A stretch of DNA of 43,242 nt, taken from Candidatus Aadella gelida (GTDB lineage: Bacteria; Omnitrophota; Gorgyraeia; Tantalellales; Tantalellaceae). Positions within the stretch are counted from its first letter, which is position 1. Every line of letters begins with the position of its first letter. The stretch spans positions 1 to 43,242 of the forward strand of contig JAVCDB010000070.1 in assembly GCA_030765205.1 (NCBI GenBank), read 5' to 3'. A program made the position numbers and the translations under genes. Below, piece by piece: positions 2,782 through 33,917 of this stretch. The notes under the pieces were generated by a model. That model ran no database searches, was not told where the DNA came from, and saw only the letters and a program-made list of their open reading frames with translations.

Positions 2782-2872
2782 ATCGTTAATTCGTGACTCG
2801 TGGCTCGTGATTCGTAAACAGTGAATAGTAAACTGTTGACTATTGACTATGGACAATTGACTATTGTCAAAT
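2782..2872. repeat. 7-nt-periodic degenerate array, 13 units
   Basis: ATCGTTA ATTCGTG ACTCGTG GCTCGTG ATTCGTA AACAGTG AATAGTA AACTGTT GACTATT GACTATG GACAATT GACTATT GTCAAAT; position 6 is T in 12 of 13 units. Confidence 0.85.
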
Positions 2873-2905
2873 TCCTGTCCCATTTGCACATCAGGCATTA
2901 TTTGT

Positions 2906-3889
2906 CTATAGTCTATCAAAAACTCCCGGCAAAACCTGTGCTACTATTTTGGGATTAATATTTGACATTAATGCCTTACGCATTTCTATTAGCTCCCCGA
3001 CCATGTCATATATCCCGTCCGCTCCATATTTCTTCAGCCGTCCGCAAAGCTCACTTCCCATAAAATCTTTATCTATCATAAGATTTTCCAAGTGTTCCCC
3101 GCTTAAAACCGTGTCCCTTAAAAGCATAATAAGAATATCTATGTCCTCTAGAATATTATCCTTATCATCATTCATCCAATCCCTCTTTCCGGGACTGTTT
3201 TCTTCTAAAATACTTTCCAAGAGAGCAATAATATTCTCTTTTTTCTCTTCAATACCTTCTTCTATTATTTCAAGAGCTTTTCCAGGAGATCCTTGAGAAA
3301 AATATGCCAAAAATTGCGCCTCTTCTTCTCTTAGATGTCCCATCTCCCGCATTATTATATCTTTAGCCAGTTCTACGGAAAGAGAGTTAAACCTTACCTC
3401 CGAACATCTTGATATTATCGTATTTAATAGAAGTTCCCTCTTGCTCGTGATCAGTATTAATACGGAACTTTCTTGAGGCTCTTCTAAAACTTTAAGTAAA
3501 GCATTCCCGGCGGGTATTGTCATGCAATGTGCGTCTTCTATAACGCATATACCCAGTGGAGATTCAAACGGCTTGAGACCGAGCGCTTCCCTCGCGGTAC
3601 GTATCTGTTCGATCTTGATGCTTTTATTCTTCTCAGGTTTGATCCATGTGATATCCGAATGCGCGTTATTCTCGATCTTGACACATGCCGGACAAAGAGA
3701 ACATCCCTCTCCGGACGAAAGGGTATTTTTGCATACAAGAGCCTTAATAAACGTTTTTGCGCAAAGAGCCCTGCCTACCCCTTCAGGCCCTGAAAAAAGA
3801 TAACTTTTAGATAATCTCCCTGAAGAAAGACTGTTCGAAAGATATCGGACAGCATTATCCTGTCCCTTTATGTTCCCTAATAGCGACAT
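2906..3889 (-). CDS. holB: DNA polymerase III delta' subunit
   Basis: YLFSGPEGVGRALCAKTFIKAL Walker A-like, Cys cluster CKNTLSSGEGCSLCPAC, LLKVLEEPQESSVLILIT; located next to tmk. Confidence 0.88.
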   Translation of the reverse strand: MSLLGNIKGQDNAVRYLSNSLSSGRLSKSYLFSGPEGVGRALCAKTFIKALVCKNTLSSGEGCSLCPACVKIENNAHSDITWIKPEKNKSIKIEQIRTAREALGLKPFESPLGICVIEDAHCMTIPAGNALLKVLEEPQESSVLILITSKRELLLNTIISRCSEVRFNSLSVELAKDIIMREMGHLREEEAQFLAYFSQGSPGKALEIIEEGIEEKKENIIALLESILEENSPGKRDWMNDDKDNILEDIDILIMLLRDTVLSGEHLENLMIDKDFMGSELCGRLKKYGADGIYDMVGELIEMRKALMSNINPKIVAQVLPGVFDRL

Positions 3890-8434: not shown

Positions 8435-8454
8435 GGGCACGGCATGCCGTGCCC
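8435..8454. repeat. 20-bp perfect palindrome (REP-like)
   Basis: GGGCACGGCATGCCGTGCCC between the PIN-TRAM and mlaD genes. Confidence 0.7.
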
Positions 8455-18315: not shown

Positions 18316-18428
18316 TTCTATCTAAAAGTCGAAATGTCTGTTTCCCGTTACTCTACTATTCCCATATCAGTTCAACTTGACTCTAAAGAGCGAAGCGACT
18401 GATGACTTTCGTTGCACATCAGTCCTTC

Positions 18429-18505
18429 TATAGTCAATTGTCAAATAACGTCCCTCATCCTTCGTCTTTCTTCTTTCTGACCTCTAGCCTCTAGCTTCTC
18501 TCTAC
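18429..18505. repeat. 7-nt-periodic array (11 units) reaching the lolC/E stop codon
   Basis: TATAGTC AATTGTC AAATAAC GTCCCTC ATCCTTC GTCTTTC TTCTTTC TGACCTC TAGCCTC TAGCTTC TCTCTAC; C at position 7 in all units. Confidence 0.85.
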
Positions 18506-19713
18506 TCATACCTTATTGCTTTAACCGGATCTTGTCTTGACGCCTTCCATGCGGGATATAGCGCAGAAAGGATAGTTAGTATCCCTGCAACCGTAAGTAC
18601 CGAAACAATGTCAGGCATATCGACCTTAACCGGTATCTCTGTAAAGTAATACACATCGCTAGGAAATATCGGCGTACCTGTTACTTTCTCTATGAACCCA
18701 GCTATAACATTTATTTTTTTCGCAACTAAAATGCCCGCAAAAAAACCTGTCGCAACACCCGTAATACCTATAATCAAGCCTTCTATAAGAAACACTAAGT
18801 TTATCCCGGACGCGCTTGCTCCTATCGCTTTAAGTATCCCGATATCTTTAGTCTTCTCCATTACCATCATTATCAGCATCCCTGAGATATTAAAACAGGC
18901 AACCATCACTATAAGAGCGAGAATGATGAACATCATCTTTTTTTCCAAAGCAAGTGCGGACACCAAGTTCTTATCAAGATCCATCCAGCTTTTTACAATG
19001 TACGGATATCTGAAAGACTTTTGCAGATTACTTTTAACATCATTGACTTTCATCTCGTCCTGCACCTTAAGTCCTATCCCGCTAACGGACCTCCCCATAC
19101 GAAGAAGTTTCTGTGCAGTACCAAGATCCACCACTACGATATTGGAATCATAATCGTATCTTCCTGAAGTAAAGCTTCCCACAACTTTTAGTTTCGCGTG
19201 TTCCATATTAAGTGCAGAATACGGAACCACTATCTCAACCATATCTCCGAAAGCAATATTCTCAGTTTTCATTAGTTCATTCCCGACAACAATAGTTCCG
19301 GAATTAAGTTCATCTGACCCCGTTCCCATATAGTCTATAACATTCGTAACCCCACCTTCCGTACGGGAGTCTATCCCTTTAAGCAGGACTCCCGTAACAG
19401 ACCCTTTACTCTTAAGTATAGCTTGCCCTGTAATAAAAGGGGATGCGCTCACTATCCCTTCTTCCTGCAGCAAACTTGATGCCATTCTATCGGAATTATC
19501 TATCCCATCCTCGTTCAAAATGATCATATGAGAATAAGTCCCTATGATCTTGTTTTTTATCTCACTATCAAATCCGTTCATTATGGATAAGACCACAATA
19601 AGAGAAGCTACTCCAAGCGCTACTCCAAGCACAGAGATTACCCCAACGAAAGAGATCATTCTCTCTTTGCGCTTTGACAGAAAATATTTTATACTAATAA
19701 ATAATGGCCACAT
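18502..19713 (-). CDS. lipoprotein-releasing system permease LolC/LolE (start moved to MWPLF)
   Basis: FISIKYFLSKRKERMISFVGVISVLGVALGVASLIVVLSIMNGF...DIGILKAIGAS; the ORF-track N-terminal extension is repeat DNA. Confidence 0.9.
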   Translation of the reverse strand: MWPLFISIKYFLSKRKERMISFVGVISVLGVALGVASLIVVLSIMNGFDSEIKNKIIGTYSHMIILNEDGIDNSDRMASSLLQEEGIVSASPFITGQAILKSKGSVTGVLLKGIDSRTEGGVTNVIDYMGTGSDELNSGTIVVGNELMKTENIAFGDMVEIVVPYSALNMEHAKLKVVGSFTSGRYDYDSNIVVVDLGTAQKLLRMGRSVSGIGLKVQDEMKVNDVKSNLQKSFRYPYIVKSWMDLDKNLVSALALEKKMMFIILALIVMVACFNISGMLIMMVMEKTKDIGILKAIGASASGINLVFLIEGLIIGITGVATGFFAGILVAKKINVIAGFIEKVTGTPIFPSDVYYFTEIPVKVDMPDIVSVLTVAGILTILSALYPAWKASRQDPVKAIRYE

Positions 19714-19714
19714 A

Positions 19715-19896
19715 ATTCGGGACTCGTGGCTCGGGACTTGGGATTCGATCCCCAAGTCATGAACCACAGTCTACTCCATTCGTTATTCGTGATTCGTGGC
19801 TCGGGACTCGGGATTCGATCCCCGGGTCATGAACCACAGTCTACTCCATTCGTTATTCGTGACTCGGATCACGTGCCCCGAGTCACTAGCCACGAT
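19715..19896. repeat. 7-nt-periodic region with 70-bp tandem duplication and three consecutive hairpins
   Basis: 19731-19800 vs 19801-19870 differ at only 3 of the first 60 nt, all in the hairpin stem; third hairpin GTGACTCGG/CCGAGTCAC at 19859-19886. Confidence 0.85.
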
Positions 19897-21330
19897 CTAT
19901 TCCGGTCTCATATGCGGGAAGAATATAACTTCCCGGATATTGGCTGAATCCGTAAAAAGCATAGCTAACCGGTCTATACCTATTCCTAATCCCCCAGCCG
20001 GCGGCATTCCGTACTCCAGAGCGCGGACAAAATCTTCATCCATCATAGCGTCGGGGTCCGCTTTAACTTGTTCCTCGAACCTTTCTTTCTGGTCTATTGG
20101 ATCATTAAGTTCAGAATATGCATTCGCGATCTCCATTCCGCCCATATAAAGCTCGAACCTGTCGACCAATCCTGGCTTGTCTTTTTGTGACTTAGCCAAT
20201 GGGCTCAGTTCCTTGAACATATCAATTACAAAAACCGGATTATTTTCAGCTTGAGGTTCAACCATCTCTCCCACTATATTTATGATCTGGGTCTTACTAA
20301 CTTTGTCTCCTTCAAGTTCTATCCCTTTTGCTTTAAGTTTTCCTGCCCAATCTTTAGCCGAATCCTCGGTTCTTATGCCAAAATTGTCTTCCATAAGCTT
20401 GGCAAAAGATACACGTTTCCATTTTGTAAGGTCTATCTCTTTCCCCTGATAAGTCAACTTTTCAGTTCCAAGTATTTCCCGAGCCGCAGTGCGTATAAGG
20501 TCTTCTGTGAGCTTCATCATGCCTTCACAGTCAGAATAAGATTCATATGCTTCAAGCATGGTAAACTCAGGATTATGCCTGACTGAGATACCTTCATTCC
20601 TGAAAGACCTGTTTATTTCAAATACTTTCTCAAATCCGCCAACAAGAAGTTTTTTAAGATATAGTTCAGGTGCCACCCTCAAATAAAGCGGCATATCCAA
20701 AGCTTCATGATGAGTCTTAAAAGGCTTTCCAGCCGCTCCCCCGGCTATAGGATGCATCATAGGAGTTTCCACTTCAAGAAAATCCTTACCGTTTAGGTTA
20801 TTTCTTATGCTGCGTATAAGTTCTATACGCTTTTTGAATTTATCTTTTGCTTCATCATTGACTATAAGATCTACATATCTCTGACGGTACCTCGTCTCAA
20901 CATCTTTAAGTCCATGCCACTTTTCGGGAAGAGGCAGTAAAGATTTGGCTACCACCTTAAACTCGCTAACTTTGACCGTATCCTCGCCCGTCCTGGTCTT
21001 GAAGAGTTCTCCGTCAACCCCTACGATATCCCCGATATCTAAAGCTTTTAATACCTCAAAGGCTTCTTCGCCTATAACATCTTTCTTCAGATAGGCTTGC
21101 ATTCTTCCGGAAAAATCCTTTATATCCAAAAAGACGCTTTTTCCGTGCTCCCTCTTGGCCATGATCCTACCCGCAATCCTTACCTTCAGCCCTTCCTCAT
21201 AGTTTTCCTTCAAAGAAGCTATGCTGTCAGCTCCCGGGAATTCTTCGGCAAAAGGATTTATTCCTAACTCCTTGAGCCTTTTTAGATTTGTATACCTTTG
21301 TTCTATTATCTCATTTCTCTCTTCCATCAT
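19897..21330 (-). CDS. lysS: lysyl-tRNA synthetase, class II
   Basis: RYRQRYVDLIVN, FLEVETPMMHPIAGGAAGKPFKTHHEALDMPLYLRVAPELYLKKLLVGGFEKVFEI, MPPAGGLGIGIDRLAML. Confidence 0.97.
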   Translation of the reverse strand: MMEERNEIIEQRYTNLKRLKELGINPFAEEFPGADSIASLKENYEEGLKVRIAGRIMAKREHGKSVFLDIKDFSGRMQAYLKKDVIGEEAFEVLKALDIGDIVGVDGELFKTRTGEDTVKVSEFKVVAKSLLPLPEKWHGLKDVETRYRQRYVDLIVNDEAKDKFKKRIELIRSIRNNLNGKDFLEVETPMMHPIAGGAAGKPFKTHHEALDMPLYLRVAPELYLKKLLVGGFEKVFEINRSFRNEGISVRHNPEFTMLEAYESYSDCEGMMKLTEDLIRTAAREILGTEKLTYQGKEIDLTKWKRVSFAKLMEDNFGIRTEDSAKDWAGKLKAKGIELEGDKVSKTQIINIVGEMVEPQAENNPVFVIDMFKELSPLAKSQKDKPGLVDRFELYMGGMEIANAYSELNDPIDQKERFEEQVKADPDAMMDEDFVRALEYGMPPAGGLGIGIDRLAMLFTDSANIREVIFFPHMRPE

Positions 21331-23984: not shown

Positions 23985-24028
23985 TGTAACCTGACGGAGA
24001 AAATTCCTTAATTTCCATATCGGTCATT

Positions 24029-24137
24029 CTCTGTCCATAGTCAATGGTCAATGGTCTCAGCCGAAGGCTGACCAGCCTATGGCTGGTATAGTCTTTTGTC
24101 TATTCTTCACCAAACACCATTCACTATTCACCGTCTC
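24029..24137. repeat. 7-nt-periodic array with two adjacent hairpins, overlapping the polX 3' end
   Basis: CCATAGTCAATGGTCAATGGTC; hairpins CAGCC-GAA-GGCTG (24058-24070) and CCAGCC-TAT-GGCTGG (24072-24086). Confidence 0.7.
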
Positions 24138-30408: not shown

Positions 30409-30777
30409 ATGGGTACGCGTAAAGATACCGGAATAACCGGGGAGCGCATGGCCGAGAAGTTTCTTCTTTCAAAAAAGTTTAAGGTTCTCGAGAAGAATTT
30501 CATCACTCCTTTCGGAGAGATAGACTTGGTTGCTCATGACGGAAACTTGTTGGTATTCGTGGAAGTAAGGACACGTATATCAGAGACTTTCGGCCATGCG
30601 CTGGAATCTATAGACACACACAAACAGCGTCATATAGTCAATAACTGCCGTTACTACATGGCGAGACGTAGTTTGCGAGAGAAATATTGGAGAATAGATG
30701 TTATAGGAATAAAGCTCAACAGATCTTTAGAGTTGGAGGTCTTGACACATATTAAGAACGCGATAGTGAAATATTAG
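30409..30777 (+). CDS. yraN: YraN family (UPF0102) endonuclease-like protein
   Basis: GERMAEKFLLSKKFKVLEKNF..GEIDLVAHDGNLLVFVEVRTR. Confidence 0.92.
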   Translation: MGTRKDTGITGERMAEKFLLSKKFKVLEKNFITPFGEIDLVAHDGNLLVFVEVRTRISETFGHALESIDTHKQRHIVNNCRYYMARRSLREKYWRIDVIGIKLNRSLELEVLTHIKNAIVKY

Positions 30778-30783
30778 ATTAGA

Positions 30784-30930
30784 GACCATTGACTATTGAC
30801 AGAGAAGGACTGCTGTGAGAAGAGAGTCAGAGAGTCAGGATTTACTGATGCCCTCTTTCTACCATTGCGAGAAACGAAGCGACGAAGCAATTTCAAAAAG
30901 TCAATTGTCAATCGTCAAGTGTCAATAGTC
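30784..30930. repeat. yraN-comM intergenic composite: 7-nt arrays in inverted orientation around an ATTGC..GCAAT element
   Basis: GACTATTGAC (30791-30800) inverted as GTCAATAGTC (30921-30930); ATTGCGAGAAACGAAGCGACGAAGCAAT between them. Confidence 0.75.
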
Positions 30931-30964
30931 CACAGATCACTTTTAACCCCTAAAAGGAGAAAAC

Positions 30965-33409: not shown

Positions 33410-33917
33410 ATGAAAATAAGGAAGGTAAAAATTATGAGTAAAGTAAAAAGATATTTTGAGGAAGGCTATCCTTACTTTATCACTACTAATACTGATAAAA
33501 AATTACCGATTTTTACTGATGAAAAAAACTGTAAAATCCTTCTTGTAGCCTTGGAATTCTTTACAATTAGTTCTGAACTACAAGATATTTGCGTATTGCC
33601 TAATGCCCACTCATCTTCATTTTATACTTCAAACTACAGGCGAATATGACCACTCACATATAATGAAAATGATAAAAGGTAATTTTGCAAGAAAATATAA
33701 TATGATACATTCAAGAGAAGGTAAAGTCTGGCAGGCTGGGTTTTATGACGAAGGGCTTAGAGATATGAATATGCTTCTACAAAAAATAGAGTATATTCAC
33801 AATAACCCGGTAAAATCAAAGATTGTATTATCGTCAGATCAATATCGTTTTTCAAGCTATGCTTTCTATCACAGTAAGGATTACAAGGGTATCCCGGAAA
33901 TCGACATATTTGAATAG
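33410..33917 (+). pseudogene. REP-associated tyrosine transposase (Y1/HUH), frameshifted
   Basis: Frame 1 YFEEGYPYFITTNTDKKLPIF..ALEFF, frame 2 LNYKIFAYCLMPTHLHFILQTTGEYDHSHIMKMIKGNFARKYN..VWQAGFYDEGLRD..YIHNNPVKSKIV; the HxH motif is in the second frame. Confidence 0.88.

Follow-up and report, generated by a model that had tools for sequence, protein, structure and literature searches.

ERIC and BOX elements as well as MITEs are intergenic sequences of about 100–200 bp with a palindromic or modular structure, and their arms are not known to be built as heptad arrays. The dominance of 7 nt among bacterial intergenic repeats is an old question, for which slippage is the usual answer; that 7 nt favours slippage is a proposal of Mrazek, as reported in two studies (PMC4679880; PMC4692102), one of which describes an excess of heptamers along with it (PMC4692102). 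TAACTGA heptamers are repeated near start codons in Beggiatoaceae, Cyanobacteria and Bacteroidetes, and close strains differ there by indels in 7-nt steps (PMC4679880). Heptameric simple sequence repeats of the types GGGAATC and GGGGA(C/T)T occur in Xanthomonas and Nostoc (PMC4692102). For the spacers of Omnitrophota, no published work was found in the open-access literature.

The window analysed here, a stretch of 43,242 nt, is contig C37 of an Omnitrophota genome (Candidatus Aadella gelida, hereafter G000; 1.59 Mb in 113 contigs). It contains an array of 13 heptads between holB and ricT. With a probability of roughly 0.7, this array forms one arm and the tail of an intergenic element of the REPIN/MITE type that is dispersed and non-autonomous, and whose arms would be degenerate recognition arrays.

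The heptad array between holB and ricT

The 13 contiguous heptads were confirmed in the window sequence as listed in the original prediction, according to which nearly every unit carries a purine at position 1, a pyrimidine at position 3 and T at position 6. This register holds at 38 of 39 positions, compared to at most 31 in the best 13-unit stretch of 60 Markov-simulated 43-kb windows. The lag-7 identity of the array amounts to 0.679 over 84 nt, versus a window mean of 0.265 and a maximum of 0.512 in 60 simulated windows, and identity decays with lag (0.68 at 7, 0.62 at 14 and 0.51 at 21). As had been proposed, the array keeps its phase and its flavours form one entity, in that the CGTG, ACTGTT and TATTGAC blocks are copied together as an ordered composite. 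The blocks are not, as had also been suggested, a single heptad family drifting from CGTG to TATTGAC, but distinct modules that follow the same order in other spacers. Nor does the sequence change smoothly along the array, since neighbouring units at the flavour boundaries differ at 3–4 of 7 letters and the joints are therefore not gradual. The feature extends beyond 2872 to a second, inverted arm at 2904–2913; neither this arm nor the conserved core motif had been noticed, nor that the element is dispersed. The parts at this locus are as follows.

2782–2872: heptad array in the gap between two minus-strand genes, holB and ricT
2784..2816, minus: ACGARTY heptad module, 3' tail of the element, adjoining the ricT ribosome-binding site; the plus strand reads TTCGTGACTCGTGGCTCGTGATTCGT
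2817..2837, minus: ACTGTTY heptad module; the plus strand reads AACAGTGAATAGTAAACTGTT
2838..2868, minus: right (second) arm in sense, (yATxGTC)n; the plus strand reads GACTATTGACTATGGACAATTGACTATTGTC; model match 2836–2870
2869..2903, minus: middle of the element including the core motif; model match 2886–2916, minus
2889–2901, minus: core motif, in sense ATAATGCCTGATG, with three mismatches to AGAATGACCGATG
2904..2913, minus: left (first) arm in sense, GACTATAGAC; one unit only, in inverted orientation to 2838–2868
2906..2908, minus: holB stop codon TAG, within the left arm

This is a short copy of the element, in which the 13-heptad array comprises the right arm and both tail modules. The closest relatives of the RicT encoded in the window are from Candidatus Omnitrophota, the nearest with 79–80% identity. 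At the loci examined in RicT-bearing Omnitrophota relatives, no array of this kind is present upstream of ricT, and HolB of relatives (e.g. at L021) ends differently, with no arm at the holB end. A palindrome located at 8435–8454 of the window, GGGCACGGCATGCCGTGCCC, was seen upstream of ricT in one relative as well (L024).

An ordered element with inverted arms in the spacers of G000

Many intergenic gaps of the Omnitrophota host carry copies of an element of about 100–280 letters. Read in its sense, which is the minus strand of the window at holB–ricT, it consists of AG-rich heptads, (GACxATy)1-5, AGAATGACCGATG, a variable middle, (yATxGTC)n, ACTGTTY heptads and ACGARTY heptads; in most copies the middle starts with AGAATGACCGATG. 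Several of the statistics given here come from stretches that were selected for containing matches. In sampled stretches of G000, a search for GACxATy arrays on both strands yielded 33 arm pairs facing inward and none facing outward, in addition to 35 unpaired clusters; in 31 copies the modules lay on the expected versus the wrong side in 19 versus 2 cases for ACTGTT, 13 versus 0 for ACGA and 18 versus 3 for the AG-rich heptads. ACTGTT precedes ACGA in 11 of 11 copies having both, always standing between the GTC arm and ACGA, and lag-7 arrays elsewhere in G000 show the same succession of CGTG, ACAGTG, TTATCTGTTGAC and TATTGAC. Since the CGTG, ACTGTT and TATTGAC modules recur in one order across spacers, we read the holB–ricT array as arm and tail of a dispersed element. 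In agreement with this, pairs of copies in different gene contexts reach 91–92% identity over 150–230 nt, arms and part of the flanks included. A sequence-only model of the left arm and core gave 109 matches in G000, some of them covering arms only. Further features of the window are listed below.

18414..18521, minus: arm and core (18414–18446) of another copy, running into an AG-rich heptad module
19715..19899, no strand: heptads of the CGTG type, including an in-phase tandem duplication of 70 bp (10 x 7)
24016..24057, minus: arm and core of another copy; model match of 47.9 bits
28669..28696, plus: short arm with core of another copy
30772..30932, plus: second complete copy with both arms, between co-directional plus-strand genes
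33486–33803, plus: broken REP-associated tyrosine transposase (RAYT), Y1_Tnp with an internal TAG; the ORF 33603–33917 matches NF047646

A 26-bp REP-like palindrome, GTAGCCGGGGTTTAAACCCCGGCTAC, is present in three copies (18290, 33378 and 33930), two of which bracket the broken RAYT; similar palindromes lie within some heptad elements (L006, L110).

Arm length changes in steps of seven letters. The number of units varies between copies, while 99 of 110 GAC starts, measured from the core, fall in the same phase, so that the length change in multiples of 7 predicted for orthologous spacers holds for the paralogous copies on which it was checked. A few arms are off phase (e.g. L101_1137). Period 7 is also the dominant period of G000 spacers: in a 288-kb sample, lag-7 identity is 0.300 in intergenic DNA versus 0.257 in CDS, and 23 lag-7 arrays compare with 0–5 arrays at each of lags 4–6 and 8–13. 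Other Omnitrophota loci show the same weakly (22 lag-7 arrays in 349 kb, one being a run of N, versus 1–6 at each other lag tested), and a lag-7 excess is absent from the Bacillota loci examined.

With gene calls taken as the longest ORFs and the sense assigned from core and flanks, about 23 of 26 co-directional spacers have the element in the sense of transcription, and L104, among the three exceptions, is probably mis-oriented; for core-bearing copies on longer stretches, both flanking genes are in sense in 22 of 26. Replication direction could underlie this bias, since almost all genes occupy one strand of each contig. The window and the sampled contigs of G000 have a GC skew of about 0.13–0.23 in size and nearly all CDS on one strand per contig; a block of plus-strand genes at about 28.8–33.1 kb of the window has a weaker GC skew.

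Outside G000, the exact pattern (GACNATN)3GAC extends to other members of the phylum, being present in 42 of 286 Omnitrophota genomes with the reversed pattern rare; the counts are 111 in G000, 76 in G002, 65 in G230, 39 in G138 and 32 in G013. The reversed control CAGNTAN has matches of its own in some of the genomes (e.g. G079, G005) and would match a TAACTGA-like CAGTTAT flavour. The model matches listed outside G000 stop short of the core. In G230, a member of another family, 12 inward and no outward hairpins were seen, all of them between co-directional genes, and in clear forward cases the left arm begins 4–10 nt past the stop and the right arm ends 7–14 nt before the start. Outward arm pairs occur in G013 and G138. 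A plasmid search returned short weak matches only, of which two came from the cyanobacteria Fischerella and Nostoc. At one further locus (L184; G258:C1:85500–92000), GTC-type heptad arrays lie beside repeated similar sequence, apparently near the start codons of paralogous genes.

Fixed and free letters and competing explanations

The letters of the arm unit are either fixed or free. In 86 core-aligned units from 25 copies, conservation is.97 for G,.99 for A,.93 for C,.48 for x,.93 for A,.95 for T and.50 for y, with the GAC values flattered, since copies were found by the GAC pattern and units counted only while at least two GAC letters held; no such demand was made on the AT letters of each unit. 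The count of sites in G230 rises just from 65 to 84 when a single mismatch is tolerated at any of the 18 fixed positions. In G000, 36 of 92 arrays, versus about 5 expected, have mismatches distributed unevenly across the seven phases, a number partly inflated by higher-order duplications. No covariation or compensatory changes between arms were found: arms of the same copy are no better matched than arms taken from different copies, and at the free positions even slightly worse. Perfect pairing is slightly depleted, with P 0.03 in G000 and 0.15 in G230, which is suggestive at most. With GAC and AT fixed, x and y at about 50% and no covariation between arms, slippage by itself does not explain the arms, and nor does base-pairing. 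The fixed letters therefore suggest recognition by some factor, as the explanation left over.

Polymerase slippage as a full account, in which a length of 7 nt favours slippage, repeats of this unit expand in spacers as a result and the flavours reflect neutral drift, would fit the dominance of period 7, the fall of identity along the array, the length differences of 7n and the 70-bp in-phase duplication. Slippage very probably does alter the unit number, but it accounts neither for the constant module order and the arms inverted across unlinked spacers nor for the strong position-specific conservation with its uneven mismatch phases, and as the whole explanation it is quite improbable and already disfavoured. 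A neutral heptanucleotide simple sequence repeat was likewise rejected, as variation is uneven over the unit and the order of variants is reproducible between loci. The chief competing explanation is that the element acts in cis as RNA at the stop–start junction. It would account for the sense orientation in co-directional spacers and for the G230 hairpins bridging stop and start, and TAACTGA repeats likewise adjoin start codons (PMC4679880). However, compensatory changes between arms are absent, the holB–ricT copy folds weakly (z −0.69), the window has 0 Rfam matches at gathering score, and the element is not conserved at the orthologous holB–ricT gap; insertion combined with selection against gene damage would yield a similar placement. 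We consider an RNA role unlikely.

Least probable is a true REPIN family mobilised by resident RAYTs, for which there would be candidates in the four Y1_Tnp matches of G000, one of them the broken RAYT of the window, and which would agree with the resemblance of the inverted doublets to REPINs (PMC3116915). The remnant in the window sits between copies of a different palindrome, G013 has array matches but no Y1_Tnp match in its incomplete assembly, Y1_Tnp occurs in 231 of 286 Omnitrophota genomes with or without arrays, and the compensatory changes reported for REPINs were not seen in the arm comparison. All of this argues against a RAYT-driven family. A broader reading is also conceivable, though doubtful: a phylum-wide class of intercistronic elements whose tandem sites of 7 nt, five letters of each fixed and two free, would be read by a dedicated hypothetical factor, either a transposase of a new kind or a regulator that binds RNA, while the stop-to-start hairpins may also couple translation.

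The dispersed non-autonomous element is the preferred reading. Its copies would spread via transposition or hairpin copying, as in REPINs and MITEs, and insertions would survive mainly in stop-to-start gaps, with selection filtering the others. GAC and AT may be retained because they are read as tandem 7-nt sites by a hypothetical factor, for instance a transposase or a protein that binds DNA or RNA. Mobility is what we infer, since the analysis revealed neither a transposase between or linked to the arms nor a clean empty site. Among the G000 model matches, read by eye, no arm pairs 0.5–3 kb apart that could represent an autonomous long version were noticed.

Comparison with known repeat systems

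The element shares with ERIC, BOX and MITEs the intergenic size class and the palindromic or modular build, by description rather than by sequence; with regard to MITEs, inverted arms were seen, and no parental element was noticed among the G000 model matches. REPINs likewise are short inverted doublets around a spacer, capable of hairpin formation and present in many extragenic copies (PMC3116915). As in REPINs, inverted repeats around a spacer are dispersed as a unit in G000, with units common to several loci. The ends of REPINs are REP palindromes tied to RAYTs and show compensatory changes (PMC3116915), while the element has heptad arms, no compensation and no demonstrated transposase.

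Heptad repeats of Xanthomonas and Nostoc resemble the element in being intergenic arrays with lengths that vary extensively between relatives and for which slippage was proposed, but they are G-rich, discussed as quadruplex formers and not reported as ordered arms of a dispersed element (PMC4692102). The combination of paired inverted heptad arms, core and ordered modules was not found in the open-access literature. Since the heptads described here belong to a defined dispersed element with position-specific conservation, the question of 7-nt dominance turns testable, and it may be asked whether heptad repeats elsewhere are what is left of similar elements. TAACTGA repeats are tandem heptamers in spacers, often adjoining start codons, in one orientation and with related heptamers mixed in (PMC4679880). 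Period, placement and orientation agree with the element, whereas unit sequence and inverted pairing differ: TAACTGA repeats are mostly 2–6 near-identical direct repeats of one unit, with one inverted case only (PMC4679880), while in the element the arms are paired and inverted, each unit leaves two letters free, and there are a core motif and flanking modules in fixed order.
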